A stretch of DNA of 32,031 nt from an uncultured Bacteroidales bacterium (lineage in GTDB: Bacteria > Bacteroidota > Bacteroidia > Bacteroidales > UBA4417): positions 1 to 32,031 of the forward strand of contig CAIJPI010000191.1 of NCBI GenBank assembly GCA_903822525.1, given 5' to 3'. Under the pieces are notes generated by a model, which was not told where the DNA came from, ran no database searches, and saw only the letters and a program-made list of their open reading frames with translations. Positions 8,453 through 24,010 of this stretch are shown one piece after another; position 1 is the first letter of the stretch, and every line of letters begins with the position of its first letter. The position numbers and the translations under genes were made by a program.

Positions 8453-8681
8453 GGTTCAACTACGAATTTAATCGAATTGGTTCTAAATTGGCCCGAAGTC
8501 GGAAGGCGGAAGTCTGAAGCAGGGACTAACCCGAATTTACATACTATCAATTGAAAATAAGTTGCATACTGTTAATCGTCTTACAATGTGCTTCTTATTC
8601 TGAATAAAATAGTTTTCAGGAGATATTCTGACTTCCGACTTCCGACAACTTGATTGGACCCACTAAAATAATAGTAGAACC
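8453..8681 (-). mobile_element. MITE-like element, copy 1 (229 bp)
   Basis: This is a non-coding element in the opposite orientation to the other two copies in the window (19315-19550 and 23761-24010). It has terminal inverted repeats (outer end GGTTCAACTAC here against GGTTCTACTA at the other). Its flanking 8-mers are AAAAAAAT (8445-8452) and CAAAAAAT (8682-8689), which match at 7 of 8 positions, as expected of a slightly decayed target-site duplication. Inside are complementary arms of CGGAAGT-type heptamers: three on one side and only two on the other. A central core contains TTATTCTGAATAA. There is no ORF. It is inserted between pyrF and prfA. Confidence 0.88.
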
Positions 8682-8705
8682 CAAAAAATAAAGCGGACCT
8701 TCAAT

Positions 8706-9776
8706 TTATTCCGTTACCTCTTTCAGCCTCTCAGCATTTTCAGCTAACTGCAGCGAATCAATAAAGTCCTGTATTTCACCATCTAAAAATACTGGAAGGT
8801 TATACATGGTAAGATTGATGCGATGGTCGGTTACGCGGCTTTGCGGGTAGTTATAGGTACGTATTTTTGCTGAGCGGTCGCCTGAGGAAACCATGGTTTT
8901 ACGTTTTTTCGAAATTTCATCCAGGTATTTCTGATATTCTCTTTCAAAAATCCGGGCACGAAGCACCGTCATGGCTTTCTCGAAATTCTTCATCTGCGAT
9001 TTTTCATCCTGTATAGCCACAACAATTCCTGTGGGAGCATGAGTAAGCCTTACGGCAGAGTAGGTCGTATTTACGCTTTGTCCGCCGGGGCCAGAGGAAC
9101 AGTATGTGTCTTTCCGGATATCGCTTGGTTTAATATCAACTTCAAACTCATCGGCTTCGGGAAGTACTGCAACCGAAGCAGCTGATGTATGGATACGTCC
9201 TTGTGTTTCAGTATCAGGGACACGTTGAACGCGGTGTACACCCGATTCGTATTTCAACAGTCCGTAAACTCCATCGCCTTTAACTTCGAAGATTACTTCC
9301 TTGAAACCTCCCATGGTGCCTTCGGTCATGCTTACAGGCTCAATTTTCCAGTTTTTACGTTCGATGTAGCGTGTGTACATGCGGTAAAGGTCGCCGGCAA
9401 AAATGCTGGCTTCGTCGCCACCGCTACCTGCCCTGATTTCGACAACGGCATTTTTTACATCCTGCGGATCGGAAGGAATAAGCATCAGGCGGATTTCTTC
9501 TTCCAGTTTTTCCTGTTTTTCCTGAAGAGTGTCTATTTCTTCACGGGCAAATGCGCGCATTTCCTCGTCTTTTTCTTCTTCGAGTATGGAATGACAGGCT
9601 TCGATTCCTTCGACAATTACTTTATATTGTTTATATCCTTCAATGATAGGCTGAAGTTCTTTGAAATCTTTGCTGAGTTTAATGAATGCTTTAATATCCT
9701 GCATAACGTCAGGATCGTTGATCTGTTTCTCAATTCCAAGGTAACGCTCGTGTATGGCTGCAAGCTTGTCTAACAT
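8706..9776 (-). CDS. prfA: Peptide chain release factor 1
   Basis: This 356-residue class I release factor has a coiled N-terminal domain, the tripeptide stop-codon anticodon PxT as 'PDT' (187-189, in [10 protein letters not shown]), and the GGQ motif (231-233, in [12 protein letters not shown]) that triggers peptidyl-tRNA hydrolysis. The PxT motif makes it RF1 (UAA/UAG) rather than RF2 (SPF). The frame opens at a TTG at 9803, but that codon overlaps the -7 promoter element (9801-9808). The ATG at 9776 gives the normal RF1 length and is preferred. It is a single gene downstream of purM, from which it is separated by a structured 163-base gap. Confidence 0.97.
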
Positions 9777-9800
9777 ATTATTATCTGATTTTTGCGGGTG

Positions 9801-9808
9801 CAAAGGTA
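9801..9808 (-). promoter_or_regulatory. -7 promoter element (TACCTTTG) of prfA
   Basis: Exact TAnnTTTG, 24 bases upstream of the ATG at 9776, the same spacing as before several other genes here. No TTG at -33. It overlaps and so excludes the upstream TTG start. Confidence 0.5.
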
Positions 9809-9831
9809 AGGGAAATGAAGATTGCTTTTAG

Positions 9832-9922
9832 ATATTACGCTAAAAGGTTCCGGCTGGCTGATCCTTCCGGTAAAAATAGCATGAGAATTCCGAAAAATTG
9901 TTTTGCCGGTTGAGCGTAATAT
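9832..9922. repeat. Nested inverted repeat between purM and prfA
   Basis: ATATTACGCT (9832-9841) is perfectly complementary to AGCGTAATAT (9913-9922). Within it, CCGGC (9850-9854) pairs with GCCGG (9905-9909), leaving a loop of about 50 bases. It begins 17 bases after the purM stop (reading the minus strand) and ends 23 bases before the prfA -7 element. It is not followed by a T run, so it is not a classic terminator. It may be a transcript 3'-end stabiliser, a small RNA or a tiny non-autonomous insert. Confidence 0.5.
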
Positions 9923-9939
9923 GAGATCAGAAGATGAAG

Positions 9940-11100
9940 CTAATATTCGAATGATTCGGTGCCAACCTGTATTGTCAGCTTCTTGCCTTCCCGTTTTTCG
10001 CATCTGCCGATAATCCGGGCCGGTATGCTGAAACTCTCTGAAATTGCAATAATGTCGTTTGCAATCTGTTCGTTAACATACAATTCCATACGGTGTCCCA
10101 TATTAAAGACCTGGTACATTTCTTTTAATGAGGTGCCTGATTGTTCCTGAATCATTTTAAAGAGAGGTGGAACCGGGAAAAGGTTATCCTTGATAATATG
10201 AAGGTTTTCGACAAAATGAAGCACTTTTGTTTGTGCTCCGCCACTGCAATGGATCATACCATGTATTGCGGAACGGTGTTTTTCGAGTATTTCCCTGATC
10301 ACAGGAGCATACGTGCGGGTTGGGGAAAGTACCAGTTGTCCTGCATTCATGCCTTTAACTTCGGTAGGGTCAGTAACTATCAGGTTGCCTGAATACACCA
10401 GATCTTCGCTGATAGCATGATCGTAGCTTTCAGGATATTTTAGCGAATAGTCATGGGCAAAAACATCATGTCTTGCTGATGTAAGTCCATTGCTGCCCAT
10501 TCCTCCGTTATAGCCGGTTTCGTAGCTTGCCTGTCCGAATGATGCCAGTCCGACAATTACATCGCCCGGCTGAATGTTGTTTTCAATAATATCGCTCCTG
10601 TGTACCCTTGCGGTAACGGTGCTATCAACAATAATGGTTTTTACCAGATCGCCTACGTCGGCAGTTTCGCCTCCGGTTGAATGTATTCCTATTCCGTTGT
10701 CCCGCATCATGGCCAGACATTCCTCGGTACCAGCTATAATTTCGCTGATCACTACGCCGGGAATCAGGTTTTTGTTGCGCCCGATGGTGGATGAAAGTAA
10801 AATGCCATCGGTTATTCCAATACAGAGTAAGTCGTCGGTATTCATAACCACTGCATCCTGGGCGATACCTTTCCATACGGATATATCGCCGGTTTCACGC
10901 CAATACACATATGCGAGTGATGATTTGGTTCCGGCACCATCGGCATGCATTACACAGCAGTATTCGGGATCGTTTCCTAAAAGGTCGGGTATTACTTTGC
11001 AGAAAGCATTCGGGTACAAGCCTTTGTCGATATTTTTAATTGCCTGATGAACATCGTCCTTGGTTGCCGAAACTCCTCTTTGTGAATACCTGTCGGTCAT
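9940..11100 (-). CDS. purM: Phosphoribosylformylglycinamidine cyclo-ligase (AIR synthase), long form
   Basis: This 386-residue PurM/PurL-superfamily protein makes aminoimidazole ribotide from FGAM with ATP in purine synthesis. Family features are 'MHADGAGTKSSLAYVYW' with the conserved DGxGTK nucleotide-site motif (about 54-70), 'GIAQDAVVMNTDDLLCIG' (98-115), 'GGETADVGDLV' (143-153), 'SGNLIVTDPTEVKG' and 'FNMGHRMELYV'. It is about 40 residues longer than the roughly 345-residue enterobacterial PurM. This longer form is common in Bacteroidetes. It is cytosolic. The ATG at 11100 is directly followed by 'TDRYSQRGVSATKDDVHQAI', a conserved opening. Confidence 0.93.
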   Translation of the reverse strand: MTDRYSQRGVSATKDDVHQAIKNIDKGLYPNAFCKVIPDLLGNDPEYCCVMHADGAGTKSSLAYVYWRETGDISVWKGIAQDAVVMNTDDLLCIGITDGILLSSTIGRNKNLIPGVVISEIIAGTEECLAMMRDNGIGIHSTGGETADVGDLVKTIIVDSTVTARVHRSDIIENNIQPGDVIVGLASFGQASYETGYNGGMGSNGLTSARHDVFAHDYSLKYPESYDHAISEDLVYSGNLIVTDPTEVKGMNAGQLVLSPTRTYAPVIREILEKHRSAIHGMIHCSGGAQTKVLHFVENLHIIKDNLFPVPPLFKMIQEQSGTSLKEMYQVFNMGHRMELYVNEQIANDIIAISESFSIPARIIGRCEKREGKKLTIQVGTESFEY

Positions 11101-11181
11101 CTTGGGGTGTGATAGTTAGTTTGGTTATTAAGCGGACTGTTTAGGGTATTGAATGATTTCCTGTGCCACACATATTTCAGG

Positions 11182-11189
11182 CAAAGTTA
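11182..11189 (-). promoter_or_regulatory. -7 promoter element (TAACTTTG) of purM
   Basis: Exact TAnnTTTG in the 102-base gap after the OmpA-family gene, 81 bases upstream of the purM ATG. The implied 5' leader is about 70 bases; no riboswitch fold was recognised in it. Confidence 0.45.
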
Positions 11190-11202
11190 TCGGGATCAAC
11201 GG

Positions 11203-13653
11203 CTATTTAAAGATAAGCTGCTTTTTCTCTTTATCAATGGTAAAAGTTCCGAATTTTTTAAGCACTTTCTCGCTCATTAAAACTGAAGCTTTTTGTTTTT
11301 GAAGCACAGTAGCTTCCAGTTCAAATGCTGAACGGGTTGCTATTCCTATTTCGCCAACAGTAAAAAGAGATTTATCAGCAACAGTATTACTGGCAAGGAT
11401 TTTTTCGGCATCCCCTTCAAAATCGGTTTTGCCAATAGCCCCTGCTTTGAGCATTTTCATTGTTTCGTCTACCGAAAAACTTAGCCCGGGACCATCCTCA
11501 CTCAGGGTTATCTGAGTTGTGAATCCGTTTACAACAGCCGCAAAGTACAATGTGTTATCAGGGTTTGACTGCAAGGGGACTACATTATCTTCAGGGTTTA
11601 TCTGTATGCTGACTTTCTGATTCTGGCTGGTAATAGCCTGGTTCTGTGTTTTAGGGACAAAGTCTTTGCTGATAATCCGGAATTCGGAACGACGGTTCAA
11701 TGAATAGGCAGCTTCCTGTTCAGGTTTTGTGGAAAGGGAGTCGATAAAAGCCTGTGAAAGCAGAGTGCCGGTTTTAAAAGTAAAGCCGTCTTTAACTGCA
11801 TCTTTCATCATTTTCCTTGGAATGCGTTCGCCATATCCTTTTGCAATAAGTCTGTCAGGATCAATACCACGGTCGATAAGGTAGTTTACAACTGACTCGG
11901 CCCGTTTCTGCGAAAGCACATCATTGCTTTCATCAGTGCCTCGTGAGTCGGTATGTGATGCGAGTTCTATAATAATAGTTTCATTTTCGTCCAGTGTCTT
12001 GATCAGACCCTGCAACGAATCCTGGTATTGGGGTTTCAGGTCCCATTTGGCAAGGTCATAGAGAATATCGGGTAAAACAACAGGTTTGTCAGGAATAGGC
12101 TGCAGCATGAAGTTGATAGTGAAGTCTTTGCTGCTTTCGAGTCCGACAGTGGTTTCCTTCGCTTTTTTGTTAAAATAATTTGCCTTCAGGCAGATAAGTT
12201 CATAGGTAGTATTTGGTTTTATCTGTGATTTGCTGAAGCTGTAAAATCCTTTGGCATCGGTGCGTGCTTCGACTGAAGTGCCGTTCGATCCTGTAAGTTT
12301 GATAACAGCACCCTGAATAAACTGCAGTGTATTGTCATCTTTTACAAGCCCGGAAAGGGTAAAGATGACAGGCGGATTCACAAAGGAATACAAGTCGTCG
12401 CTTCCACGGCCACCTTTACGGTTGGAAGAAAAGAATCCCTTATCCTCTTCAGGATGGAAAATCATGGCAAAATCATCACCCGATGAGTTTATCGGGACCT
12501 GTAAGTTTACCGGTTTGGTCCATTCGTCGTTCGAAAAGGTAGAGCGGAAGATATCGAGGCCTCCCATACCCGGATGTCCGTTGGATGAAAAATACAAGGA
12601 AGTGTCGTTTCTCATAAACGGGAACATTTCATCGCCAGGAGAATTAATAACCGGTCCTGCATTAACGGCTCTTCCGAAATTATCGTTTGAAGTTTTGCGT
12701 GTCGACATCCATATGTCTTTGCCTCCCTTCCCTTTAGGGAGATTGCAGGAGAATAACAGGGTAAGTTCGTCGGGACTAACTGAAGGATTGCCGAAAACGG
12801 TTGTGCTGTCGCCGCCCAGGTCCAGTGCTTTGGGCTCGCCCCAATTGCGGCCTGCCCTGCGGGAAACCATGATTTTACAACCCTGCAACGAGCCTTTATC
12901 ATTTGCGCAACGGGTAAAATACAATTGGGTGAATTTGCTGTTTACGGATGGATTTCCTTCGTTGGCTTCGGTATTTATCACATTGCCGGTTTCAAGCAGC
13001 ACAGGAGTTGACCATTGAGCTTTAGGGTCAAGTTTTGAGATGAAAAGATCGCTGAAGTTCTGGCCTGTCCAGTTGTCCATATCTTTTCCGGTGGCAGCAT
13101 CGCGGGTGGATGTGAAAATGATGGTATTGTAAAGTTTATCAGCGTATGAAACTGAGAAGTCAGATTCTTTCGAATTCAACACTTTTTCGGTGCTGATTTT
13201 ATATTTAGTAGGGTTATCAATCCATTCCTGTGCAAGAACACAAGAAAGAGATCCATTTTTTCCCCGTGGATCTTCAGGTGCTAATTCAGCATATTTGTCG
13301 AAATACAATTTTGCATCCTTATATTTCTCATTTGATTTCATGGACTGGGCCAGGTACAGAAAAACCAAAGGATTGGTTTCGGCAAACTTCGTTTTTATCA
13401 GTCTTTTGTATGCCGGCTCAGCTTTCTTCGTATTGTTGATAAAACGGTAACATTCGGCCATCTGAAAAGATATCTTTTCCTTATCCGGTTTGCCTTTTGT
13501 TTTTGATAATGCTTTTTTATACTTGGCAAGTGCCACATTATACTGCATATTATTAAAAGCATCGTCGCCAGCACGCAGGAAGCGGTTCTGTGCAAAAACA
13601 GGAGTAGCAGCCAGGCTGAGGATAAAGGTGAAAAGAAGGATACGTATTGTCAT
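11203..13653 (-). CDS. PorE-like OmpA-family protein (TPR-PD40-CarboxypepD_reg-OmpA) with extra C-terminal domain
   Basis: This is an 816-residue exported protein. Domains in order: signal peptide (1-21, 'ATPVFAQ', no lipobox Cys); TPR-like helices (about 24-140); a WD40/PD40-type beta-propeller (about 160-425, with repeats such as 'NPSVSPDELTLLFS' and 'DLFISKLDP'); a carboxypeptidase regulatory-like beta domain (about 431-500); and an OmpA peptidoglycan-binding domain (about 528-660, 'SHTDSRGTDESND...SQKRAESV', 'GYGE', 'LNRRSEFRI'). The OmpA domain has the roughly 40-residue insertion usual in Bacteroidetes. This architecture is that of PorE, a periplasmic factor of the type IX secretion system, and of related gliding-motility proteins. 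Residues about 695-816 form a further domain resembling a degenerate retropepsin. It probably links an outer-membrane machine to the cell wall. Many Bacteroidetes have several such paralogues, so PorE identity is inferred. Confidence 0.88.
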   Translation of the reverse strand: MTIRILLFTFILSLAATPVFAQNRFLRAGDDAFNNMQYNVALAKYKKALSKTKGKPDKEKISFQMAECYRFINNTKKAEPAYKRLIKTKFAETNPLVFLYLAQSMKSNEKYKDAKLYFDKYAELAPEDPRGKNGSLSCVLAQEWIDNPTKYKISTEKVLNSKESDFSVSYADKLYNTIIFTSTRDAATGKDMDNWTGQNFSDLFISKLDPKAQWSTPVLLETGNVINTEANEGNPSVNSKFTQLYFTRCANDKGSLQGCKIMVSRRAGRNWGEPKALDLGGDSTTVFGNPSVSPDELTLLFSCNLPKGKGGKDIWMSTRKTSNDNFGRAVNAGPVINSPGDEMFPFMRNDTSLYFSSNGHPGMGGLDIFRSTFSNDEWTKPVNLQVPINSSGDDFAMIFHPEEDKGFFSSNRKGGRGSDDLYSFVNPPVIFTLSGLVKDDNTLQFIQGAVIKLTGSNGTSVEARTDAKGFYSFSKSQIKPNTTYELICLKANYFNKKAKETTVGLESSKDFTINFMLQPIPDKPVVLPDILYDLAKWDLKPQYQDSLQGLIKTLDENETIIIELASHTDSRGTDESNDVLSQKRAESVVNYLIDRGIDPDRLIAKGYGERIPRKMMKDAVKDGFTFKTGTLLSQAFIDSLSTKPEQEAAYSLNRRSEFRIISKDFVPKTQNQAITSQNQKVSIQINPEDNVVPLQSNPDNTLYFAAVVNGFTTQITLSEDGPGLSFSVDETMKMLKAGAIGKTDFEGDAEKILASNTVADKSLFTVGEIGIATRSAFELEATVLQKQKASVLMSEKVLKKFGTFTIDKEKKQLIFK

Positions 13654-13726
13654 ATTGTACTTTGTGGACGGATCAAAACTTAAGGTACTGGGTAGTAATC
13701 TGTAAAACGATATTAAAACGAATTTA

Positions 13727-14143
13727 TTATTCTGCAGGGGTTGTGTTATCAGCAGGTTGAGGTGATGCAGCAGCAGTTGGGTTTTCAGTTAAAGGTGCAT
13801 CAGCAGGTATCCCGGAATCCGGAGATTTAGCAGGATTTTTTTTCTCTGCCATCTCAGTTTCAACCTGTACCTTGTTACGGTTAAACTCCCGGTTTACGCT
13901 TTCGACCTGATCCCGGACCTGAGTTTGAGCCGAAGAAATTTCATTCTGCAATTCGGAAGTTTCTTTCTTGAATTCCCTTGTGAGGTCGCCTGATGCCTTT
14001 TTCATCTGATTCATCAGCCTGCCGGCTTTACGAGCCATTTCCGGCATTTTTTCGGGCCCGAAGACAAGGAATACTACCAGCATGATAACCAGCAGTTCGC
14101 CTCCGCTAATATCGAGAAATAAAAGTACGGGCATTCCGGACAT
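13727..14143 (-). CDS. tatA: TatA/TatB-type twin-arginine translocase component
   Basis: This 138-residue protein has one N-terminal membrane helix (about 13-28, 'SGGELLVIMLVVFLVF') and the hallmark hinge FGPEKMPE (28-35). An amphipathic helix (MARKAGRLMNQMKKAS) and a long polar coiled-coil-like segment (about 50-100) follow, and then an Ala/Pro/Thr-rich tail. TatA/B proteins form or recruit the pore that exports folded proteins with twin-arginine signals. Bacteroidetes commonly have TatA-like proteins and TatC but no distinct TatB, so the A/B label is not certain. The extended C-terminal half is longer than E. coli TatA (89) and more like TatB. No tatC is in the window. Confidence 0.88.
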   Translation of the reverse strand: MSGMPVLLFLDISGGELLVIMLVVFLVFGPEKMPEMARKAGRLMNQMKKASGDLTREFKKETSELQNEISSAQTQVRDQVESVNREFNRNKVQVETEMAEKKNPAKSPDSGIPADAPLTENPTAAASPQPADNTTPAE

Positions 14144-14169
14144 AGATAGTGCTTTTATATTTTAACCCA

Positions 14170-14177
14170 CAAAAGTA
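14170..14177 (-). promoter_or_regulatory. -7 promoter element (TACTTTTG) of the tatA-type gene
   Basis: Exact TAnnTTTG, 26 bases upstream of the ATG at 14143 in the gap after the permease gene. No clear TTG at -33. Confidence 0.5.
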
Positions 14178-14281
14178 ATAAACTACCTTCACTTTATCGA
14201 ATAATATCTTCTGCCTGCAATAACAGCTTTATCCGGATTCATTGTTCGGATATAAAAGTATCATGCTCTTTGTTCAGTCAG

Positions 14282-15739
14282 TTATCCTTTACTGTTATTA
14301 ATTTTACTGTTAAATCGGCTGTAGGAGAAATATATAACAATACCGATAGCCATCCAGATGATTAAGCGGAACCATGTATCGCGTGGCAAAGTGGCCATTA
14401 CGCCCAATGACGATAAAACACCAAGAATAGGAATAAGAGGGAATAATGGTGTTTTAAACGGGCGGTGAATTTCAGGTCTTTTATACCTGAGAACCAATAT
14501 TCCGGCACAAACCAGCACAAAAGCAAGCAAAGTTCCTATTGAAACAAGCTCTCCAAGTATGCCTATTGGAAAAAGACCTGAAACAATCATGGCTATACCT
14601 CCTGTAATAATGGTTGTTATATATGGAGTTTTAAATTTTGGATGAACTTTTCCGAATGACTGTGGGAGAAGTCCATCGCGCGACATGGAAAAGAAAATCC
14701 GAGGCTGTCCCATCAACATTACAAGGATTACGGAACTAAGTCCGGCAATAGCGCCAATTTTAATTGGCAGCCGAAGCCAGGCCATACCATCACCTGCTGC
14801 GTTAACAGCAACTGCAACGGGTGCAGGGTCGCTCAGTTTTGTATAGGAAACGATACCTGTCATAACCAGTCCGACAAGTATATAAATAACTGTACAGATC
14901 ATTAATGATCCCAGAATTGCCCATGGCATATCTTTCTGAGGGTTTTTTGATTCCTGGGCTGCGGTTGATACAGCATCAAATCCTATATAGGCAAAGAAAA
15001 TTACCCCGGCAGCGCGGAAGATTCCACTCCATCCGTAATGACCAAATTCGCCCGTATTCATTGGGATAAATGGAGTAAGGTTATCGGATGAAACGTAATT
15101 CATTCCAAAACCAATAAAAAGTAAAATCACAATAACTTTTATCAGTACAATGATATTATTAAAGTTTGCTGATTCTTTTATACCGACAACCAGGAGGGTA
15201 GTAACCACGGCAACAATAAATACTGCCGGGAAATTAATAAAAGCTCCGGTTGTCGACCAGTCACCAGTTGCTGCATTATAATAAAACGGTGCATTTGAAA
15301 TGGATGCTGGAATGATAATTCCAAAGTCCTTAAAGAAACTTACAATATATCCCGACCATCCGACAGCAACTGTTGACGCACCGAACAAGTATTCAAGTAT
15401 CAGGTCCCAGCCTATGATCCATGCAATGAATTCGCCAAGGGTTGCATAGGCATAGGTGTAAGCGCTGCCTGCAATGGGTATCATAGAAGCAAACTCGGCA
15501 TAGCATAATCCGGCGAAAGCACAGGCAATACCGGCTACCACAAAAGATAAAACAACGGCCGGGCCGGCATAACTGGCTGCAGCCTGCCCTGTAAGTACAA
15601 AAATACCAGCACCGATGATTGCTCCTATACCCAGCGAGATAAGATTCCACCTGCTTAGTGTACGCTTTAATGAGTTTTTGTCATCGGTAGTTTGTTCCAG
15701 AAGCGTGCCGATTGATTTAGTTGCAAAGAGATTTGACAT
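14282..15739 (-). CDS. APC-superfamily amino acid permease
   Basis: This is a 485-residue polytopic membrane protein with about 12-14 hydrophobic helices. The first helix carries the APC signature 'LGIGAIIGAGIFVLTG', and further family segments are 'AGIACAFAGLCYAEFASMIP', 'GSAYTYAYATLGEF', 'FFAYIGFDAVSTAAQESKNP' and 'GQPRIFFSMSRDGLLP'. It resembles the cationic amino acid transporter branch (YfnA/CAT-type), but the substrate cannot be read from the sequence. It acts in the inner membrane. Upstream ATG and TTG codons at 15760 and 15763 lie next to or inside the -7 element at 15761-15768, so the true start is more likely the ATG at 15739 (MSNLFATKS). It is probably a single-gene transcript. Confidence 0.93.
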   Translation of the reverse strand: MSNLFATKSIGTLLEQTTDDKNSLKRTLSRWNLISLGIGAIIGAGIFVLTGQAAASYAGPAVVLSFVVAGIACAFAGLCYAEFASMIPIAGSAYTYAYATLGEFIAWIIGWDLILEYLFGASTVAVGWSGYIVSFFKDFGIIIPASISNAPFYYNAATGDWSTTGAFINFPAVFIVAVVTTLLVVGIKESANFNNIIVLIKVIVILLFIGFGMNYVSSDNLTPFIPMNTGEFGHYGWSGIFRAAGVIFFAYIGFDAVSTAAQESKNPQKDMPWAILGSLMICTVIYILVGLVMTGIVSYTKLSDPAPVAVAVNAAGDGMAWLRLPIKIGAIAGLSSVILVMLMGQPRIFFSMSRDGLLPQSFGKVHPKFKTPYITTIITGGIAMIVSGLFPIGILGELVSIGTLLAFVLVCAGILVLRYKRPEIHRPFKTPLFPLIPILGVLSSLGVMATLPRDTWFRLIIWMAIGIVIYFSYSRFNSKINNSKG

Positions 15740-16952: not shown

Positions 16953-17140
16953 CGCCCTTGTTTTGTTGCCTATAGTCTGTTCTGATTTATATGCCTCCAT
17001 CCGGAACCGGCTCACTCATCAGGATAAACATTGCAAATGTTCGCGGCCTTTCATACTATTTTAGTAAAACCTAAGTTATAGTTAACACCCGGTTGTTTAC
17101 AATTATTCCAAACTGTCTCAATACGGCTAAGCGAATACAA

Positions 17141-17148
17141 TATCTTTA
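17141..17148 (+). promoter_or_regulatory. Probable -7 element (TATCTTTA) of the exbB-exbD-tonB operon
   Basis: One mismatch to TAnnTTTG, 19 bases upstream of the exbB ATG at 17168. No good TTG at the -33 distance. Confidence 0.4.
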
Positions 17149-17167
17149 CATTTAAAACCGATACTAA

Positions 17168-17893
17168 ATGTTAAACGCAGTTTTACTTCAAATCGTTTCA
17201 GGTGCCGGCACTGCTGCTGATACGGCAGCACAGGCACTTATTGGCATACCACAGGCACCGGCTCGTGTATCCGAATCATTTTCATTATTCGAACTGCTGG
17301 TTAAAGGCGGACCGATCATGATACCTATTGCCATTTTATCCGTGCTGGCCATTTATATCTTTGTTGAAAGGAATCTCAGTATAAGGCGTGCTTCGAGGTT
17401 CGAAGCCGGATTTATGAACAACATCCGCGATTTTATTTACAACAACCGTATCGATTCGGCTATTGCATACTGCAAGAGTAACAAAAGTCCTGTTTCACGT
17501 ATGATTGAGAAGGGTATAAAGCGCCTGGGCCGTCCGCTGAAGGAAATAGAAGAGTCGATTGAAATCGTAGGGAAATTTGAGGTGTATAAACTCGAGAAGA
17601 ATATAGTGATACTTGCCATTATTGCAGGTATTGCCCCTATGTTTGGCTTTATCGGTACTATAATCGGAGTAATCAAGATTTTTCATGATATTTCCCTTCA
17701 GGGTGATGTCAGTATCACAACTGTTTCGGCAGGTTTATATACCAAAATGGTATCCAGTGCAGCTGGTTTGCTTGTAGGTATTACCGCATTTATACTCTAT
17801 CACTGGTGTAACATTATGGTTGAAAAAGCTGTTCAGAAACTGGAATACAGTGCCATGGAGTTTATTGATCTTTTACAGGAACCTTCGAAATGA
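17168..17893 (+). CDS. exbB: MotA/TolQ/ExbB proton channel family protein
   Basis: This 241-residue inner-membrane protein has an N-terminal hydrophobic region, then three membrane helices at about 49-66, 146-170 and 195-213. The last two carry the family pattern ('APMFGFIGTIIGVIKIF' and 'GLYTKMVSSAAGLLVGI'). Between helices 1 and 2 is the usual cytosolic loop ('ARMIEKGIKRLGRP'-like region). It forms the pentameric proton-channel stator with ExbD. The stop codon overlaps the exbD start by four bases (ATGA), indicating translational coupling. Given the TonB protein two genes downstream it is ExbB rather than TolQ, though a Tol-like role cannot be excluded because no tolB or pal is nearby. Confidence 0.93.
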   Translation: MLNAVLLQIVSGAGTAADTAAQALIGIPQAPARVSESFSLFELLVKGGPIMIPIAILSVLAIYIFVERNLSIRRASRFEAGFMNNIRDFIYNNRIDSAIAYCKSNKSPVSRMIEKGIKRLGRPLKEIEESIEIVGKFEVYKLEKNIVILAIIAGIAPMFGFIGTIIGVIKIFHDISLQGDVSITTVSAGLYTKMVSSAAGLLVGITAFILYHWCNIMVEKAVQKLEYSAMEFIDLLQEPSK

Positions 17894-18300
17894 ACCTAAG
17901 AAAGAAGACGAAAATAACAGCCGAGGTTGCAACTTCATCCATGAACGATATTATGTTCTTCCTGATGTTGTTCTTCCTTATTATGTCGACTCTACTTAAC
18001 CCAAATGTTGTAAAGCTTACCTTACCCAGCTCAAAGCATAATCAAACGCTGAGGCAGAAGGAAGTTACTATTTCGGTAACAAAGGAACTGCAGTATTATG
18101 TAAATAATGCACCTGTTGCATTCGAAATGCTCGAGCCTATGCTGTCAGCTGAACTTCGTAAGTCGAGTGATCTTACAGTTATACTGCGTTGTGATAACGG
18201 TATAAGCGTTCAAAATCTGGTCAACGTGCTGGAAATCGGCAATAAGTTAAAAGTTAAAATGGTTCTCGCCACAAAAGCCCCCAATGGAGCAACCGGATAG
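17890..18300 (+). CDS. exbD: ExbD/TolR biopolymer transport protein
   Basis: This 136-residue ExbD-family protein has a short basic N-terminus, one membrane helix (about 18-37) with the essential proton-carrying Asp at D20 ('SSMNDIMFFLMLFFLI'), and a small periplasmic domain with 'KEVTISVTKELQYYVNN' and 'DLTVILRCDNGISVQNLVNVL'. It is embedded in a compressed operon: its start overlaps exbB by 4 bases and its end overlaps the following tonB by 17 bases. Confidence 0.94.
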   Translation: MNLRKKTKITAEVATSSMNDIMFFLMLFFLIMSTLLNPNVVKLTLPSSKHNQTLRQKEVTISVTKELQYYVNNAPVAFEMLEPMLSAELRKSSDLTVILRCDNGISVQNLVNVLEIGNKLKVKMVLATKAPNGATG

Positions 18301-19219
18301 GAAAAATAATATTCAGAACCATGTATTGGGCATAGCCGGAACTTTATTGTTTCACGGCCTTTTATTCCTTTTATTCTTCCTCTTTGTTTTTCACACACCA
18401 ATTCCACCCTGGCCTGATGAAGGTGGCGGAGGCGGAGGCAACGGTCTGGAAATTAATCTGGGAGCCAGCAGTGAAGGGATGGGAACAGATCAATATGCAC
18501 AGGTGAGCATTCCGGATTTCGAAAATAAAAAAGCGCCTGAGCCTGTGGTCACTCCCTTGCAGGAAGAAGTGAAATCGGCAAATACAAAAGCAGAAGATAT
18601 TCTCACTCAGGATAATGAGGAAGCGGTTTCACTACCTTCGAAAAAGGATGACCGCAAGCCGAAAATTGTAAAGGACAATACGGTGAAGCAACCGGTTCAG
18701 CCACCTGTGGTTGCTCAGCCTGTTGTTAATACTAACGCACTGTATAAAAAGAATAAAAATACTAACGACGGAACTACAGGCAAACCCGGAAACCAGGGAA
18801 GAGAAGACGGTACTGCAGGGTCAGGCAACTACGGCGGAACCGGTTCGGGTAAGGGCAGTGGGAACGGCTCAGGGAACGGAAGCGGATCAGGAACAGGTTC
18901 AGGGTCGGGAACTGGCTCAGGCAGCGGTAGCGGCAATGGTAATGGCATTTCCTTCGATCTGGGAGGACGACCGGCCCGCAGTTTGCAAAAACCTTTTTAT
19001 AATTCGCCTGAACAGGGGAATATTGTAGTCACCATTAAAGTTAACAGACAGGGAAAAGTAACCTACGCGTCTGCCGGTGCAAAAGGTACCGATATTTCAG
19101 AAATAGGGCTGCGTCAACAAGCAGAGAATGCTGCGCTTAAAACAGTATTTGCACCTGATGAAAATGCCCCTGATGAACAAAGGGGTACCATTACTTACAA
19201 ATTCAAGAAAGTTAAATAG
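18284..19219 (+). CDS. tonB: TonB-like energy transducer with Gly/Ser-rich spacer
   Basis: This 311-residue protein has a short cytosolic N-terminus, one membrane helix (about 14-36) and the motif 'GGGGGGNGLEINLG' (47-60) seen after the helix in Bacteroidetes TonB relatives. A charged and Pro-containing segment (about 85-150) follows, then a very regular Gly-Ser/Thr/Asn spacer (about 179-221), and a C-terminal TonB-like domain (about 236-311: 'GNIVVTIKVNRQGKVTYASAG', 'AENAALKTVFAPDENAPDEQ' in segments). It lacks the YP/PxW signature of classical TonB, so its receptor partner may differ. It starts 17 bases inside exbD, so the three genes are co-translated. Confidence 0.87.
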   Translation: MEQPDRKNNIQNHVLGIAGTLLFHGLLFLLFFLFVFHTPIPPWPDEGGGGGGNGLEINLGASSEGMGTDQYAQVSIPDFENKKAPEPVVTPLQEEVKSANTKAEDILTQDNEEAVSLPSKKDDRKPKIVKDNTVKQPVQPPVVAQPVVNTNALYKKNKNTNDGTTGKPGNQGREDGTAGSGNYGGTGSGKGSGNGSGNGSGSGTGSGSGTGSGSGSGNGNGISFDLGGRPARSLQKPFYNSPEQGNIVVTIKVNRQGKVTYASAGAKGTDISEIGLRQQAENAALKTVFAPDENAPDEQRGTITYKFKKVK

Positions 19220-19314
19220 ATTCTCCTTTATTAAAAGACTTCCTTTGAAGAGTTGCTTTTAAGTGCTTTATAAAAGCTAATCATTCCTGAAAGACAAGGA
19301 TCATTCAAAGATTT

Positions 19315-19550
19315 GGTTCTACTGTTATTTTAGTGGATCAAATCAAGATGTCGGAAGTCGGAAGACGGAAGTCAGAATTTCTCCTGAAAACTATTTTATT
19401 CAGAATAAGAAGCACATAGTAAGACGATTAACAGTATGCAACTTATTTTCAACTCATAGTATGTAAATTCAGTTTAGTACCTGCTTCCGACTTCCGTCTT
19501 CCGACTTCGGACCGATTCAAAACCAATTCCATTAAATACGTAGTAGAACC
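19315..19550 (+). mobile_element. MITE-like element, copy 2 (236 bp)
   Basis: This copy is in the same orientation as copy 3 (23761-24010); the two differ at about 14 positions plus a 14-base indel. It is flanked by an exact 8-bp direct repeat AAAGATTT (19307-19314 and 19551-19558), a target-site duplication. The ends are GGTTCTACTGTT and, inverted, GGTTCTACTACG. Left-arm heptamers CGGAAGT-CGGAAGA-CGGAAGT are complementary to the right arm ending CTTCCGACTTCGG. There is no ORF. It lies between the exb/tonB operon and a downstream terminator-like hairpin. Confidence 0.93.
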
Positions 19551-19566
19551 AAAGATTTAAACAACA

Positions 19567-19600
19567 AAAGCCCTGCAATTTGCAAGGCTTTCTGTTTTTT
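19567..19600. terminator. Bidirectional terminator-like hairpin
   Basis: AAAGCCCTGCAA (19567-19578) and TTGCAAGGCTTT (19580-19591) pair with a single mismatch on the plus strand (a G-U pair on the minus strand). On the plus strand it is followed by CTG and six T, and on the minus strand by CTTTTGTTGTTT-type sequence. It can end the exbB-exbD-tonB transcript from the left and the small-peptide transcript from the right. Confidence 0.7.
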
Positions 19601-19616
19601 GACTGGTATTTCAGGG

Positions 19617-19739
19617 TTAGAAAAGTAGTTTTATAAGTACAAGGATGGCAATAAAGCCGCCTATTATGAGAAAGAATGGCAGAGCTCCGCTGCTTTTTTT
19701 GCTTTGTTCTTCATCCGGGTGATATTCATTAGTTTTCAT
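19617..19739 (-). CDS. 40-residue single-helix membrane peptide
   Basis: This short open frame reads ATG to TAA. It has a polar N-terminal half (MKTNEYHPDEEQSKKSSG) followed by one strongly hydrophobic helix (about 20-38, 'PFFLIIGGFIAILVLIKLLF'). The amphipathic layout, with charged residues only before the helix, looks like a genuine small membrane protein rather than a chance frame. It sits directly behind a terminator-like hairpin at 19567-19591. Such peptides are often annotated as hypothetical in Bacteroidetes; no function is known to me. Confidence 0.6.
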   Translation of the reverse strand: MKTNEYHPDEEQSKKSSGALPFFLIIGGFIAILVLIKLLF

Positions 19740-19890
19740 GATTTCGGGATTTAAGTAATGATTCCGGTTGTAATAGCTGAAAAATACCCAATTCAGAGAA
19801 AGGTGGAATTTCAGTACCCGGAAATATAAAATTGATTGTAAAGACGCTGCCTACTGATTTGTATCAACGAAGTAATGAGTACGTGACTAT

Positions 19891-20235
19891 TTATAAACGT
19901 AATGCGCCTGTATAAATAAAAACAGGGATAGTAGAATAATAACGACTGTTTATTGATCTGAAAGGAATCTCAACAATCGCTGGTGAAGTTGAACTATATT
20001 TATTGACAAAAGTAGTATTGAAAGGATAAGGAAACCAATGATTCCTGTTCTGGAAATTCTGAATCTTGTTTCCCTGATCAGGCCTGAGAAAAAAATCAAC
20101 AGGACCCTGAGTCTTTATCCTTGACTCTGCCCATTTCCCCGATTGCACATAAGCTAATTCCAACTTAGCCTGGCTCTGAAGCATAAGAGACAGGAAAAGA
20201 ACAAAGATTGCGCAAAGGGATAAGAATGGCTTCAT
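19891..20235 (-). CDS. Small exported protein of unknown function
   Basis: This 114-residue protein has a clear signal peptide (about 1-22, 'LLSLMLQSQA'-like core with cleavage near QSQA) and a mature part of about 90 residues. The mature part is rich in aromatic residues, Asn and Ser and contains no Cys. It includes 'GPVDFFLRPDQGNK', 'NHWFPYPFNTTFVNKYSS' and a beta-rich end 'STIPVFIYTGALRL'. I do not recognise a family. It lies between the 40-residue peptide and secDF on the same strand, but the strong secDF terminator (20311-20338) separates it from secDF, so it has its own promoter. Confidence 0.7.
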   Translation of the reverse strand: MKPFLSLCAIFVLFLSLMLQSQAKLELAYVQSGKWAESRIKTQGPVDFFLRPDQGNKIQNFQNRNHWFPYPFNTTFVNKYSSTSPAIVEIPFRSINSRYYSTIPVFIYTGALRL

Positions 20236-20301
20236 AGCCTTTTACAAATTATGGCATAAAGGTAATTGATTTCAGCTCAATACTAAAATGATTTCCCAAT
20301 A

Positions 20302-20338
20302 TAAAAAACAAAGAGCCCTGAAAATTTTCAGGGCTCTT
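20302..20338 (-). terminator. Rho-independent terminator of secDF
   Basis: This is a perfect 28-base inverted repeat: AAGAGCCCTGAAAA (20311-20324) against TTTTCAGGGCTCTT (20325-20338). On the minus strand it runs into TGTTTTTTAT. It is 23 bases beyond the secDF stop. Confidence 0.92.
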
Positions 20339-20361
20339 CAAATATTAGATTTTAATCCAGA

Positions 20362-23300
20362 CTACTTCTTTTCAGCTAATTTCAGCTTAGCTTCATGGCG
20401 TCTTTTCTGCCACATGATAAGGTCATAAGCAATAGGCGTAGCGTTCAGAATGGATGAATATGTTCCAACTGCAACCCCTAATAAAAGAGCAAATGTGAAT
20501 CCCCTGATTACTTCACCACCAAATAAGAACATGGCAAGTAATACCATAAATGTAATACCTGATGTATTCAATGTACGGCTCAATGTACTGTTGATAGCTG
20601 CGTCCATTGTTTCCTGCAGATTCCGTTTCGGATACAGAGTGGTATATTCACGGATACGGTCGAAGATAATTACCGAGTCCATAATCGAGTAACCAATAAT
20701 GGTGAGGATAGCAGCAATAAAATGCTGGTCGACATCAAGACTGAAAGGAAGCACGCCATGTAGCAACGAGAATATTGCAATTACAATAAACGTATCGTGG
20801 AACAGTGAAACTACAGCGCCAACACCCCATTGCCATTTACGGAAACGAAGGAGGATGTATGCAAATACAATCAACAAAGTGAAGAATACAGCGTAATATG
20901 CTTTAACAAGCAAACTGTAAGCAATAGTTGGCTGCACCTTCTGTGAACTCATTTTTCCAAAAGCTTTTTTGTCGCTGTGCGCGAGGAAATCGGCTGCAGA
21001 TATACCGTTTTTGTATAGAGGTTTTAGACCGGCATAAAGTTTTGCTTCAACAATTGAATCTACTTTTGGTGATTGATCATTGATCATGAATGAAGTGGTA
21101 ATCTTCACCTGGTTATTCTTACCGAAAGTCTTTACTTCAGGCTCCTGGCCGTATTCTGTTCCTAAAGCCATACGAACATTATCGGTACGAACATCCTGGT
21201 CGAAACGGACAATATAAGTACGTCCGCCTTCGAAATCTATACCATAGCTAAGTCCCCTTGTAAATAAGGAAACAATACCTATAACAACAAGTGCACCTGA
21301 AATAATATAGAAAATCTTCCTCATTCCAATAAAATCAACTTTGGTATGGGTAAGAATGTTTTCTGTAAAACGATTCCACAAACTAATTTTTTTGTTTCTA
21401 TCCAGAAGAGCAATAAAAATTATGTGTGTGATAAAGATAGCACAGAACATGGAACTAAGAATACCAATGATAAGTGTAGTTGCAAATCCTTGTACAGGTC
21501 CTGAGCCAAATATGTATAATACAATACCGGTTAAGAGTGTAATGACGTTACTATCGACAATAGCCGAGAGTGCATGTTTATACCCATCATCAATAGCCAG
21601 TCGTAAGCCTTTTCCAGCCCGGAGTTCCTCCCTGATACGTTCATTGATAATTACGTTTTTATCAACGTCCATACCCAGGGTAAGCACAATACCGGCAATA
21701 CCGGGAAGTGTTAAAACGGCACCTATCGAAGCAAGAACTCCAAATACAAAGAACATATTGACTAAAAGGGCAACATTAGCTACCATACCAGCCCTGTTAT
21801 AGTAGAAGATCATGTATAACAACGTAAGAGCGAAAGCTACTATAAATGACCATAAACCGGCATTAATAGCTTCTTTACCAAGAGTAGGTCCAACAACAGC
21901 TTCTTCAACAATATGAGCAGGAGCAGGGAGCTTACCGGCTTTCAGCACGTTAGCAAGGTCCTGGCCTTCTTCAACCGAGAAGTTACCTGAAATGGATGAA
22001 CGACCGTTAGGGATTTCATCATTTACGTTTGGTGCTGAATAAACATATCCATCAAGTACAATTGCAACCTGTTTGCCAACGTTGTCGCGGGTAAGGTTAC
22101 GCCATATTTTTGCGCCTGTATTATTCATTCCCATCGAAACCTCAACTCTTCCGTTCTGATCGTAATCCTGACGGGCATCAATGATAACATCGCCAAAGAG
22201 TGCTGCGGTATTCTCACGGTTAGTCGATTTTAGCGCCATCAGTTCAAGAACTTCAGGAGCTTCTTTTTCAGGTTTAACAGCCCAGGCAAGCACGCAATTA
22301 CGTGGCAGCAATCCTTTTACCTTCGATAACATTACATTTATCCGAGCAGTATCTTTAATTGCAGCATAACCTACCGTAGCACGGTTGGTAGCATACATTT
22401 GTCCGTTTTGCTGTGAGTAAGCGGGTTGAAGGTATGCAAATAAAGGATTTTCCTTTTTGTATTTGGCCGCCTGCTGGTCTTTACCGGTTGCAGTTGTGTC
22501 CTGTTTCAGTTTGTCGGCAAGACTTGATTTCTTTGCTGTATCAGCAACTTTAGCAACAACTGCGCTTGAATCTTTTTTAGCTTGCAGTGTATCGCCGGCT
22601 TTTGCAGTTGTGTCAGCTACAATGTCTGTACCTGCCAAGCGTTTGTTGGCTTCGTTAAAAATACCGGCCAGTTCACTGAATTTATAGGTTTCCCAGAATT
22701 CGAGTTTAGCTGATCCCTGGAGAAGTTTACGAACGCGGTCAGAATCTTTGATACCAGGTAATTCGATTAAAATGCGGTCGCTGGTAGCGTGTTTACTGAT
22801 ATTAGGCTGGGAAACGCCAAAACGGTTAATACGGTTGCTAAGAATCTCGAAGGTGCGGTCAAAGGCATCATTACATTCCTTGCGAATTACAGTAAGAACT
22901 TCTTCGTTAGTAGAAGTCGGCCTGATTTTTTCGCGCAATTCCATACGGCCGAAAATAGCTGATAGTTTTGCATTTGGATCTAACTGGGTAAAAGATTCTC
23001 CAAACAGGGTAACAAAGTTTGATTGACTGTTCTTCTGTTTTTCAGAAGCCATTTCCATAGCTTTGGTGAAAACAGGATTTGTACTGTTACCTGACATTTG
23101 CCGTACTACATCAGCAACGGAAACTTCCATTGTTACGTTCATACCACCCTTGAGGTCAAGACCGAGGTTGATTTCGCGATCCATACATTCTTTATAAGTG
23201 TACTTGCGGAGAAGTATATTATAAACAGGTTGGTTGGCTACTGAATCGAGATAGTACTGCGTACGTACATCTTTAAGTGAATCGAGAAGATGGACTTCAA

Positions 23301-23472
23301 GTAGGGCATCGTTTTTTGCTAATTGTTTAGCCAGAGCTTGCGCTTGTTCGTTGGTTGCGTACTTTTCAGCTCTGTTTTTGGTAATTGCAGTAACCAAAGT
23401 AAACGAAAGCTGGAAAAGTGACACCAGGGCAAATGCAATTGCAAAGAAACGTATTGTGCCTTTATTCTGCAT
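20362..23472 (-). CDS. secDF: Protein translocase SecD-SecF fusion
   Basis: This 1036-residue single polypeptide combines SecD (N-terminal part) and SecF (C-terminal part), as is normal in Bacteroidetes. The SecD half has a first helix (about 8-30), 'GLDLKGGMNVTMEV' (104-117), a periplasmic P1 domain, and 'GMDVDKNVIINERIREELRAG' in the fourth-helix region with the conserved Asp. The SecF half begins near residue 720, with 'GIDFEGGRTY' (about 743-752) and 'YSIMDSVIIFDRIRE'. Twelve membrane helices are expected. It uses the proton motive force to pull preproteins through SecYEG. A Lys/Ala/Asp-rich low-complexity insert (about 287-340, with repeated 'DT', 'KKDSS', 'KLKQDT') lengthens the periplasmic domain. 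It is flanked by a near-ideal promoter and terminator, so it is monocistronic. Confidence 0.97.
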   Translation of the reverse strand: MQNKGTIRFFAIAFALVSLFQLSFTLVTAITKNRAEKYATNEQAQALAKQLAKNDALLEVHLLDSLKDVRTQYYLDSVANQPVYNILLRKYTYKECMDREINLGLDLKGGMNVTMEVSVADVVRQMSGNSTNPVFTKAMEMASEKQKNSQSNFVTLFGESFTQLDPNAKLSAIFGRMELREKIRPTSTNEEVLTVIRKECNDAFDRTFEILSNRINRFGVSQPNISKHATSDRILIELPGIKDSDRVRKLLQGSAKLEFWETYKFSELAGIFNEANKRLAGTDIVADTTAKAGDTLQAKKDSSAVVAKVADTAKKSSLADKLKQDTTATGKDQQAAKYKKENPLFAYLQPAYSQQNGQMYATNRATVGYAAIKDTARINVMLSKVKGLLPRNCVLAWAVKPEKEAPEVLELMALKSTNRENTAALFGDVIIDARQDYDQNGRVEVSMGMNNTGAKIWRNLTRDNVGKQVAIVLDGYVYSAPNVNDEIPNGRSSISGNFSVEEGQDLANVLKAGKLPAPAHIVEEAVVGPTLGKEAINAGLWSFIVAFALTLLYMIFYYNRAGMVANVALLVNMFFVFGVLASIGAVLTLPGIAGIVLTLGMDVDKNVIINERIREELRAGKGLRLAIDDGYKHALSAIVDSNVITLLTGIVLYIFGSGPVQGFATTLIIGILSSMFCAIFITHIIFIALLDRNKKISLWNRFTENILTHTKVDFIGMRKIFYIISGALVVIGIVSLFTRGLSYGIDFEGGRTYIVRFDQDVRTDNVRMALGTEYGQEPEVKTFGKNNQVKITTSFMINDQSPKVDSIVEAKLYAGLKPLYKNGISAADFLAHSDKKAFGKMSSQKVQPTIAYSLLVKAYYAVFFTLLIVFAYILLRFRKWQWGVGAVVSLFHDTFIVIAIFSLLHGVLPFSLDVDQHFIAAILTIIGYSIMDSVIIFDRIREYTTLYPKRNLQETMDAAINSTLSRTLNTSGITFMVLLAMFLFGGEVIRGFTFALLLGVAVGTYSSILNATPIAYDLIMWQKRRHEAKLKLAEKK

Positions 23473-23518
23473 GTGTTTAGAATTTAGGTAGTTAGATAAA
23501 CTTTATTTTTTGAGCCTG

Positions 23519-23548
23519 CAAAGATAGAAATCTATTGGCAAATAACAA
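23519..23548 (-). promoter_or_regulatory. Bacteroidetes-type promoter of secDF (TTG-N19-TATCTTTG)
   Basis: On the minus strand TTG (23546-23548) lies 19 bases from TATCTTTG (23519-23526), a full match to the Bacteroidetes -33/-7 consensus with ideal spacing. It is 46 bases upstream of the secDF ATG. It is the best promoter in the window. Confidence 0.75.
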
Positions 23549-23752
23549 ACCCGGGCGCAGAAAGAAATGTGCGGAATTATAATCTACTTATCAACAAAGA
23601 GACATTTCAGGACGTAATGTTTGCAAAATCAGATGATTTGTTTGCATGCAAAAATACAGGGAAGGATTATATAAAAACATGATTTTAAGGTGTACGAACT
23701 CTTTGCAGAAACTTTATACCTGTCAAAAGGCAAGAATGAAATGTGTTTAGTT
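23549..23752. other. Divergent secDF/phosphatase intergenic region, no gene seen
   Basis: AT-rich sequence between the secDF promoter and MITE copy 3, with no supported coding frame, RNA or repeat. The remaining bases 24019-24206, after the element, are likewise without a gene; GATCTTTG at 24052-24059 is a one-mismatch -7 candidate for the gene at 24207. Confidence 0.4.
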
Positions 23753-23760
23753 ATTCTTTT

Positions 23761-24010
23761 GGTTCTACTGTTATTTTAGTGGGTCAAATCAAGTTGTCGG
23801 AAGTCGGAAGACGGAAGTCGGAAGACGGAAGTCAGAATATCTCCTGAAAACTATTTTATTCAGAATAAGAAGCATATTGTAAGACGATTAACAGTATGCC
23901 ACTTATTTTCAATTCATAGTATGTAAATTCGGGTTAGTACCTGCTTCGGACTTCCGTCTTCCGACTTCGGGCCAATTTAAAACCAATTCCATTAAATTCG
24001 TAGTAGAACC
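23761..24010 (+). mobile_element. MITE-like element, copy 3 (250 bp)
   Basis: The longest copy. It is flanked by an exact 8-bp direct repeat ATTCTTTT (23753-23760 and 24011-24018). The terminal inverted repeats start GGTTCTACT at both ends and stay alike over about 22 bases (about 17 identical). The left internal arm has five heptamers (CGGAAGT/CGGAAGA alternating) against three in copy 2, which accounts for the 14 extra bases. The core contains the palindrome TTATTCAGAATAA. There is no ORF. It is inserted between the divergent secDF and phosphatase genes. Confidence 0.93.

Follow-up and report, generated by a model that had tools for sequence, protein, structure and literature searches.

Three short non-coding elements in this DNA truly belong to a multi-copy family of miniature inverted-repeat transposable elements (MITEs), and with a probability of roughly 0.9 they are non-autonomous elements with two different ends, resembling the 3′ and 5′ ends of ISL3-family insertion sequences (ISs), that would be mobilised in trans. 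Their arms are built of 7-bp tandem arrays, which is their unusual feature.

Results

The window, i.e. the whole stretch of 32,031 nucleotides analysed, contains three copies of subfamily A. Copy 1 (8453..8681, minus strand, 229 bp) is inverted and lies between prfA and pyrF, and copies 2 (19315..19550, 236 bp) and 3 (23761..24010, 250 bp) are on the plus strand, copy 3 having two more repeat units than copy 2. The target-site duplications, all given on the plus strand, are exact on both sides of copy 2 (AAAGATTT, 19307..19314 and 19551..19558) and of copy 3 (ATTCTTTT, 23753..23760 and 24011..24018), and the two sides of copy 1 (8445..8452 and 8682..8689) agree at 7/8 positions. None of the listed open reading frames (ORFs) of at least 80 aa overlaps any of the three copies. 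The initial annotation, made from the letters of the window, had described three non-coding copies at these coordinates with these ends, the inversion of the first, two exact direct repeats and one of 7/8, and no visible transposase, all of which was borne out. Searching the window against Rfam returned no match, and a motif scan of positions 8300-24200 gave 39 promoter-like sites (37.5 expected) and 22 terminator-like sites (15.3 expected, sd 4.0), none of the latter listed inside a MITE copy.

Across the organism's own genome (G000), 30 full-length copies of 211-302 bp were found (39 listed rows minus 9 reverse readings of the same copies), falling into three subfamilies, together with six further copies split across contigs, the halves of which were re-paired via their 8-bp flanks (five exact, one at 7/8); the high copy number that had been predicted from the window is therefore real. 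The assembly often breaks at these repeats. Among the 30 full-length copies the duplication is an exact 8 bp in 21, 7/8 in seven and 5/8 in two. Since 28/30 true flank pairs agree at 7/8 or better compared with 18/870 mismatched pairs, and 57 genomic matches to the end pattern (at most two mismatches) compare with none for its reversed control, the window copies and their duplications are beyond chance. The duplicated 8-mers vary between insertion sites, and the terminal inverted repeats are imperfect and about 22 bp long. Gene context was evaluated for 25 of the 30 copies, five being left out for their short flanks: 22 are intergenic and three are spanned by an ORF of at least 100 aa once the element is removed. 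The targets, first described as AT-rich and intergenic, are indeed AT-rich and mostly intergenic. These are the traits of a MITE: short, multi-copy, free of ORFs of at least 80 aa (in the window copies), bounded by terminal inverted repeats and target duplications, and with ends in common with autonomous elements, here residing in genomes other than its own (L118 and a Saprospiraceae ISL3 element, see below).

Each hairpin arm is an array of a 7-bp unit (GGAAGTC/GACTTCC), the two arms being inverted to each other around an AT-rich core. In copy 3 the left arm is a GGAAG-type array (23796..23837, plus strand) and the right arm the complementary CTTCC-type array (23944..23977, plus strand; inverted pairs I5 and I10), the two being paired in the predicted hairpin; the predicted folds are strong (RNA fold z -8.1 for copy 2 and -10.2 for copy 3). 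Most of the length variation of the MITE is due to this repeat, as length departs from the subfamily median by multiples of 7 in 28/30 copies and in 14 of the 16 that are off the median. The arrays would gain and lose units, probably via replication slippage, which would explain why copies differ in 7-bp steps. Scored against a null of first-order Markov resampling, the tandem array has p >0.05 in 5/30 own copies and in 7/15 elements from other genomes; this scoring omitted the L197 element and, for the L101 element, whose 451-bp bounds are probably wrong, took a 209-bp end, the duplication there being 6/8.

It is conceivable, though we doubt it, that the arrays came first and were either captured by a transposon or simply hit by its insertion, being otherwise unrelated to the biology of the MITE. 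Such an order of events would fit the heptad arrays without recognised MITE ends that occur in the own genome (C88 and C142) and in other genomes (L039, L269, L271 and L272), the reversed control of the heptad pattern giving 3 in G000, 2 in G105 and 9 in G210. It sits badly with the three subfamilies, which are about 65% identical and yet all carry the unit in both arms, inverted and at the same place, and with some MITEs of other lineages that have the same ends but a different tandem unit, some of them with 8-bp arrays.

The left end of the MITE differs from the right, the left corresponding to the 3′ end of an ISL3 element and the right to its 5′ end. A locus of the same order, L118, contains a 1277-bp ISL3 element with an 8/8 duplication (TTTTTTAT), the protein of which matches PF01610 (234.8 bits) and NCBIfam NF033550 (288.5 bits, cut-off 180). 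The IRR-like left end of copy 3, GGTTCTACTGTTATTTTAGTGGGT (23761..23784, plus strand), matches the 3′ end of this element at 23/24 positions and its 5′ end at 17, and the IRL-like right end, GGTTCTACTACGAATTTAATGGAA (23987..24010, minus strand), matches the 5′ end at 20/24 and the 3′ end at 18, the comparison between MITE and IS being one of end sequences only. A second, multi-copy ISL3 element with similar ends was found in the Saprospiraceae MAG Tobar13m-G19 (G712), where the 3′ end GGTTCTACTGTCATTTTAATGGGT lies on 4/7 contig edges carrying an ISL3 C-terminus, the remaining 3/7 representing another ISL3 element that ends in GGTTCTTTACC; the 5′ end is present on three contigs, two of which pair through exact 8-bp flanks. 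The left MITE end agrees with the ends of this element at 22/24 and 21/24 positions and the right end at 18 and 19. Two more ISL3 elements, L147 and L148, have GGTTCTACC/GGTACTACC ends and 8/8 duplications. Overall, subfamily A ends share 17-23 of 24 positions with L118, the Saprospiraceae element and L147, and 16-18 with L148; the left-to-3′ and right-to-5′ correspondence is clear in L118 and unclear in the other three.

In a survey of the order, only L118 among the 31 loci checked for paired ends combined GGTTCTAC ends with a duplication, the remaining loci having GGATC/GGGTC-type ends or none resolved. At the level of the phylum, paired ends of the ISL3 type flanked by 8/8 duplications were present at 7/30 loci (L147, L148, L154, L155, L160, L161 and L164), of which only L147 and L148 start with GGTTCTAC/GGTACTAC, and the rest had no paired ends or chance pairs. 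PF01610 was matched in nine of 19 other genomes that have the end pattern, and in none of the 19 was a complete ISL3 element bounded by MITE-type ends assembled. The MITE thus has the 8-bp target duplication and an end sequence common to ISL3 elements; the ISL3 transposase (DDE_Tnp_ISL3), present in its partner L118, is absent between its own ends, and it is therefore not itself an ISL3 IS.

The IS6, IS1595, IS66 and IS256 families also generate 8-bp duplications, and there is a slim chance that one of these other DDE families moves the MITE, copies of which abound in genomes that yielded no ISL3 transposase with such ends. Nevertheless, every IS found with ends of this type, in a search directed at ISL3 alone, belonged to ISL3, and in one of these elements each end has its counterpart in the MITE. 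If the MITE were no transposon at all but a hairpin repeat of the REP/BIME or terminator kind, multiplied through recombination or duplication, its strong predicted hairpins and the intergenic position of 22/25 testable copies would be accounted for. This is highly improbable, as the 7/8 or 8/8 duplications of 28/30 copies, varying by site, argue strongly against it and there is also a full-length IS whose ends match.

A search of 16 genomes from the genus, the own genome included, detected no ISL3 transposase with MITE-type ends; the taxonomic family consists of this genus only, and the family-level search covered the same genomes. One of the 16 has a PF01610 match (L082, which we take to be ISAon1-like), but its GGATCA ends differ, agreeing with subfamily A ends at 9-13 of 24 positions, and it was rejected as a partner. 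When the L118 protein was used as query in the genus, it retrieved only L082 and fragments of 37-40 aa in G009 (L178 and L180), which were also rejected, having an ISL3-like C-terminus but lying near a different end. A resident autonomous partner was likewise not found in the own genome, which is 93% complete and in 354 contigs, so that absence of the transposase is not proven.

The site of copy 1 was compared at 15 loci from other genomes of the genus. At nine of them (L254-L257, L260-L263 and L268) prfA is next to or near pyrF, about 0.9 kb away in L260, and none of these nine has paired MITE ends between the two genes; among the other six, no pyrF was found at L258, L259 and L264, L265 is off the contig, and L266 and L267 gave hits of about 40% identity. 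The spacers of the nine syntenic loci are too diverged, and hence no base-exact empty site was recovered among them. The check for empty sites proposed in the initial annotation yielded these nine loci without paired ends and no base-exact junction.

Discussion

From the sequence comparisons we propose that both MITE ends are acted on by a DDE transposase of the ISL3 type that is provided in trans and that places the element in AT-rich, mostly intergenic targets, duplicating 8 bp in the process. The inverted GGAAGTC/GACTTCC arrays around the AT-rich core would form a long hairpin, and the transposase may now be absent from, or merely transient in, the lineage. The initial annotation had listed IS1595, ISL3 and IS6 as candidate families and recommended looking for a full-length IS with matching ends; the search directed at ISL3 found full-length elements of this kind, with 8-bp duplications, in other Bacteroidota and none in the own genome, which supports ISL3 among the three.

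A MITE with ISL3 ends is a modest variation on known ISL3-linked MITEs. The description "undescribed-looking" holds for this sequence family, as no account of it, or of bacterial MITEs with array arms, was found in the open-access literature searched, but not for the kind, since ISL3-linked MITEs have been published (PMC11448079, PMC3852290). Like the 187-nt ISL3-linked MITE of Microcystis aeruginosa, as far as the excerpted account describes it (PMC11448079), the Bacteroidales MITE is short, non-coding, multi-copy and mainly intergenic, with 8-nt duplications and a stem-loop. Both also have ends matching ISL3-family elements, which in Microcystis belong to the host's own genome (GGCTCTTCG). 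The Microcystis MITE differs in end sequence and phylum; its likely transposase is resident, and its copies are described as identical at 187 bp, tandem-array arms not being mentioned in that excerpt (PMC11448079). The 179-bp MITE of Methanosarcina acetivorans, with ISMac21 as ISL3 partner, is likewise ISL3-linked but archaeal; its table row in the excerpt reads 179, 6, 22, 7, of which we take 6 as the copy number (PMC3852290). According to the excerpted reports, 8-bp duplications are shared with Tn7546 of the ISL3 family (AT-rich duplication AAAATAAG, inverted repeat GGGTCTTCGGA; PMC9782665) and ISPpu12a (PMC4133298), but these are kilobase-sized and carry a transposase and other genes. In the portion of PMC4679880 consulted, heptanucleotide direct repeats of TAACTGA are described from Beggiatoaceae, Cyanobacteria and Bacteroidetes, with slippage proposed; they too are 7-bp tandem arrays and largely intergenic, but have another unit and no evident transfer mechanism, whereas the GGAAGTC arrays sit inside a mobile element.

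The combination of ISL3-type ends with a variable 7-bp repeat inside makes it appear that the MITE spreads short tandem-repeat arrays around the genome. More speculatively, it might be an ISL3-dependent "mobile VNTR" with slippage-prone arms, which would plant a length-variable array beside a gene at each transposition; old copies that have lost their ends may account for the free heptad arrays seen in the genus, the architecture would recur in some other Bacteroidota with other units, and the family might persist with no transposase resident in the genome, sustained by ISL3 elements that come and go. Short repeats with ends that recur across Bacteroidota are now tied to ISL3, and with the transposase missing, supply in trans and loss of the partner can be tested directly. 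The 7-bp length steps show that a variable tandem array can be part of a transposable element, and such an element is one concrete route by which bacterial short tandem repeats could spread.

Copies, target duplications and subfamilies

The three window elements (8453-8681, minus strand, 229 bp; 19315-19550, 236 bp; 23761-24010, 250 bp) were re-read in the sequence, which returned the coordinates, ends and duplications of the initial annotation, and no listed ORF of at least 80 aa overlaps them, in agreement with their description as non-coding. The high copy number proposed from these three copies was borne out by a whole-genome count in G000, the genome holding the window (4.11 Mb, 354 contigs, 93% complete). 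Copy 3 as query gave 115 matches, many covering inner 7-bp arrays only; the left-end pattern (≤2 mismatches) gave 57 matches vs 0 for the reversed control; and paired-end parsing yielded 39 rows, which after removal of 9 reverse readings of the same copies left 30 full-length copies. Extraction of their flanks revealed 8-bp duplications matching at 8/8 in 21/30, 7/8 in 7/30 and 5/8 in 2/30 copies, whereas a mismatched control (left flank of one copy vs right flank of another) reached at least 7/8 in 18/870. The duplications are 91% A+T and 22 of the 25 copies with enough flank lie between ORFs of at least 100 aa, extending to the genome the AT-rich, intergenic targets noted in the window.

The copies form subfamilies A (10 copies, GTTATTTTAGTG), B (11 copies, GCTAATTTAGTG) and C (9 copies, GCCAGTTTAGTG), with identities of 0.86-0.99 within and 0.65-0.68 on average between them. 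Since the closest pair in each subfamily is 98-99% identical, copying seems to have been fairly recent. The assembly is frequently broken at these repeats, leaving ten left and seven right ends unpaired. Contig-edge halves of matching subfamily were re-paired by an exact 8-mer for C49/C187, C6/C299, C241/C6, C340/C201 and C240/C290, and at 7/8, again within one subfamily, for C13/C324. The C235-C187 pairing (7/8) was rejected because the subfamilies differ and C187 already has an exact partner; halves on C117, C304, C228 and C70 found no partner among the unpaired G000 ends.

Of 15 loci compared in other genomes of the genus, nine keep the prfA-pyrF neighbourhood of copy 1, all of them lacking paired MITE ends between the two genes. 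Divergence of the spacers prevents recovery of a base-exact empty site, so the comparison is consistent with insertion and falls short of proof. A sigma-70-like 9/12 match, CCGACA-16-TAAAAT, points outward through the left end of each window copy in a motif scan (8642-8669, plus strand; 19354-19327 and 23800-23773, minus strand) and is only a lead, the whole scan being at shuffle level. Downstream of secDF, a 14-pair stem followed by a T-run (20309-20340) looks like an ordinary intrinsic terminator.

ISL3 elements with matching ends

The initial annotation had named IS1595, ISL3 and IS6 as compatible families and considered assignment from the window impossible. ISL3 transposases were searched for with the PF01610 profile in the genus and the order, giving hits in 1/16 (own genome included) and 64/295 genomes, respectively. 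The second-best hit in the order, L118, is a complete 1277-bp element outside the genus with ends GGTTCTACTGTTATTTTAATGGGT and GGTTCTACCACGATTTAAGTGGAA and an exact 8-bp flanking duplication, TTTTTTAT. Its 404-aa protein scores 234.8 bits against PF01610 (cut-off 23) and 288.5 bits against NF033550 (cut-off 180), and just below the cut-offs of the ISL3 helix-turn-helix and zinc-ribbon models. The MITE left end agrees at 23/24 with the L118 end past the transposase stop, and the MITE right end at 20/24 with the one ahead of the start codon, vs 17 and 18 of 24 in the crossed comparisons; other 24-mers (one strand of six G000 loci, each with a MITE copy) exceeded 15 matches only 10 times. The final transposase codons enter the end repeat (CCA TTA AAA TAA CAGTAGAACC). 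A comparable reading (CCA CTA AAA TAA) is retained by the left end of A type, which would fit an origin from the 3′ end of an ISL3 gene; we infer descent of this end from an L118-like transposase gene.

A second partner element occurs in the Saprospiraceae MAG Tobar13m-G19 (G712), where three contigs (L090, L105, L111) carry the 5′ end followed by an apparent N-terminus. An ISL3 C-terminus lies at seven contig edges, four with the 3′ end GGTTCTACTGTCATTTTAATGGGT (L218, L222, L224, L226) and three (L228, L230, L232) from a second ISL3 element in that genome, with end GGTTCTTTACCATATTCAGTGGGT. Two 5′/3′ pairs have an exact common 8-mer, ATATTTAA and AAATTTCT; the L105 5′ end found no partner among the G712 3′ edges. 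Because its own ends are near-identical (22 and 21 of 24 vs the MITE left end), this element cannot separate MITE left from right. Relatives of the L118 protein occur in 42/395 genomes of the phylum; 8/8 duplications flank L147 and L148, with ends GGTTCTACC or GGTACTACC, and L154, L155, L160 and L161, with GGyTC-type ends. Matching full-length elements thus support an assignment once withheld: judged by L118, G712 and the phylum elements, the choice among the three families is probably best answered by ISL3, the one family that the search covered.

The exact 21-base end pattern was found in 34 stretches of named genomes, of which 33 carry the label Bacteroidetes, Chlorobiota or a taxon belonging to either (including Bacteroidales, Salinivirgaceae, Saprospiraceae, Cytophagales, Cesiribacter, Lishizhenia and Ichthyobacteriaceae). 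The remaining match, at 5332-5352 of a Candidatus Blackburnbacteria contig (L099, MHCC01000014.1), may reflect horizontal transfer, misbinning or chance. At ≤3 mismatches, the 12 genomes checked hold 1-44 occurrences each (reversed control 0), and that of L118 only the L118 copy itself. Parsing of end loci gave sixteen rows with duplications of at least 7/8, of which L101 is probably mis-bounded and four (L103, L187, L197, L199) are apparently from the own genus. The MITE query matches in 15/16 genus genomes (own included), several via 7-bp arrays only; relatives spanning most or all of its length at 66-77% identity occur in G004, G008, G011, G013 and G014. Ichthyobacteriaceae MAG BB17 (G707) has 44 end matches (≤3 mismatches); its loci L191, L201 and L209 contain TTGAGC...GTCGAA-type repeats, the latter two with two nested end sequences on one side. 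L197 (KTt_bin-0938, G700:C228) is a 508-bp element with a 7/8 duplication and near-identical interior repeats containing GTCCCGTAGGGACG.

Within the 16 genus genomes (own included), neither PF01610 nor the L118 protein found a transposase with matching ends. The sole PF01610 element (L082) has GGATCA ends, and the 37-40-aa ISL3-like C-terminus beside end GGCACTATAGGATTTAGAGTGG in genus mate G009 (L178, right edge of C198; L180, left edge of C67) belongs to a different ISL3 element. A fragmented assembly may lose multi-copy IS, but contig edges in G712 still carry transposase remnants of its multi-copy IS, and neither query found a remnant of this kind in G000. The simplest reading, not proven, is that the partner transposase is absent now and its supply was past or transient.

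Heptanucleotide arrays in the arms

Long hairpins are predicted for copy 3 (-99.1 kcal/mol, z -10.2) and copy 2 (-77.5 kcal/mol, z -8.1), their arms being arrays of a GGAAGTC-like unit and its complement. Copy lengths range in 7-bp steps over 222-250 (A), 211-302 (B) and 236-286 bp (C). The offset from the subfamily median is a multiple of 7, zero included, in 28/30 copies, and in 14 of the 16 off the median; each of the two exceptions lies one base beyond such a multiple. The left arm of one B copy is longer by 11 units, the right arm of one C copy is expanded, and the C340/C201 copy has an array of ~270 bp on the C340 side.

Arrays of GGAAGTC-type units also occur apart from recognised MITE ends, on C88 and C142 of G000 and at L039, L269, L271 and L272 in other genomes. 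The ~500 bp of arrays at G000:C88:4030-4520 (L242), in which most units face the same way, a short segment is reversed and no MITE ends were recognised, are possibly a decayed or hyper-expanded copy. The array pattern (≤2 mismatches) occurs in 17/198 genomes of the order, G000 having the highest number of hits listed (166, vs 3 for the reversed control). Among same-end MITEs of other lineages, L087, L108 and L110 have 8-bp arrays (0/200 resamplings reached the score), and tandem-array scoring gave no such array in L109, L191, L194, L201 and L209; array arms are therefore frequent among same-end MITEs and not universal.

Discussion

The literature searched contained no earlier account of this MITE family, which had been called undescribed-looking, and no prior description of array-armed bacterial MITEs. 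ISL3-linked MITEs are reported from Methanosarcina (PMC3852290) and Microcystis (187 nt, GGCTCTTCG ends, 8-nt duplications; PMC11448079), 8-bp duplications are on record for ISL3 elements (PMC9782665, PMC4133298), and heptanucleotide arrays are known from several phyla (PMC4679880). The ends, duplications and likely ISL3 dependence of the family are ordinary; its interest lies in arms able to stretch and in the absence of a partner.
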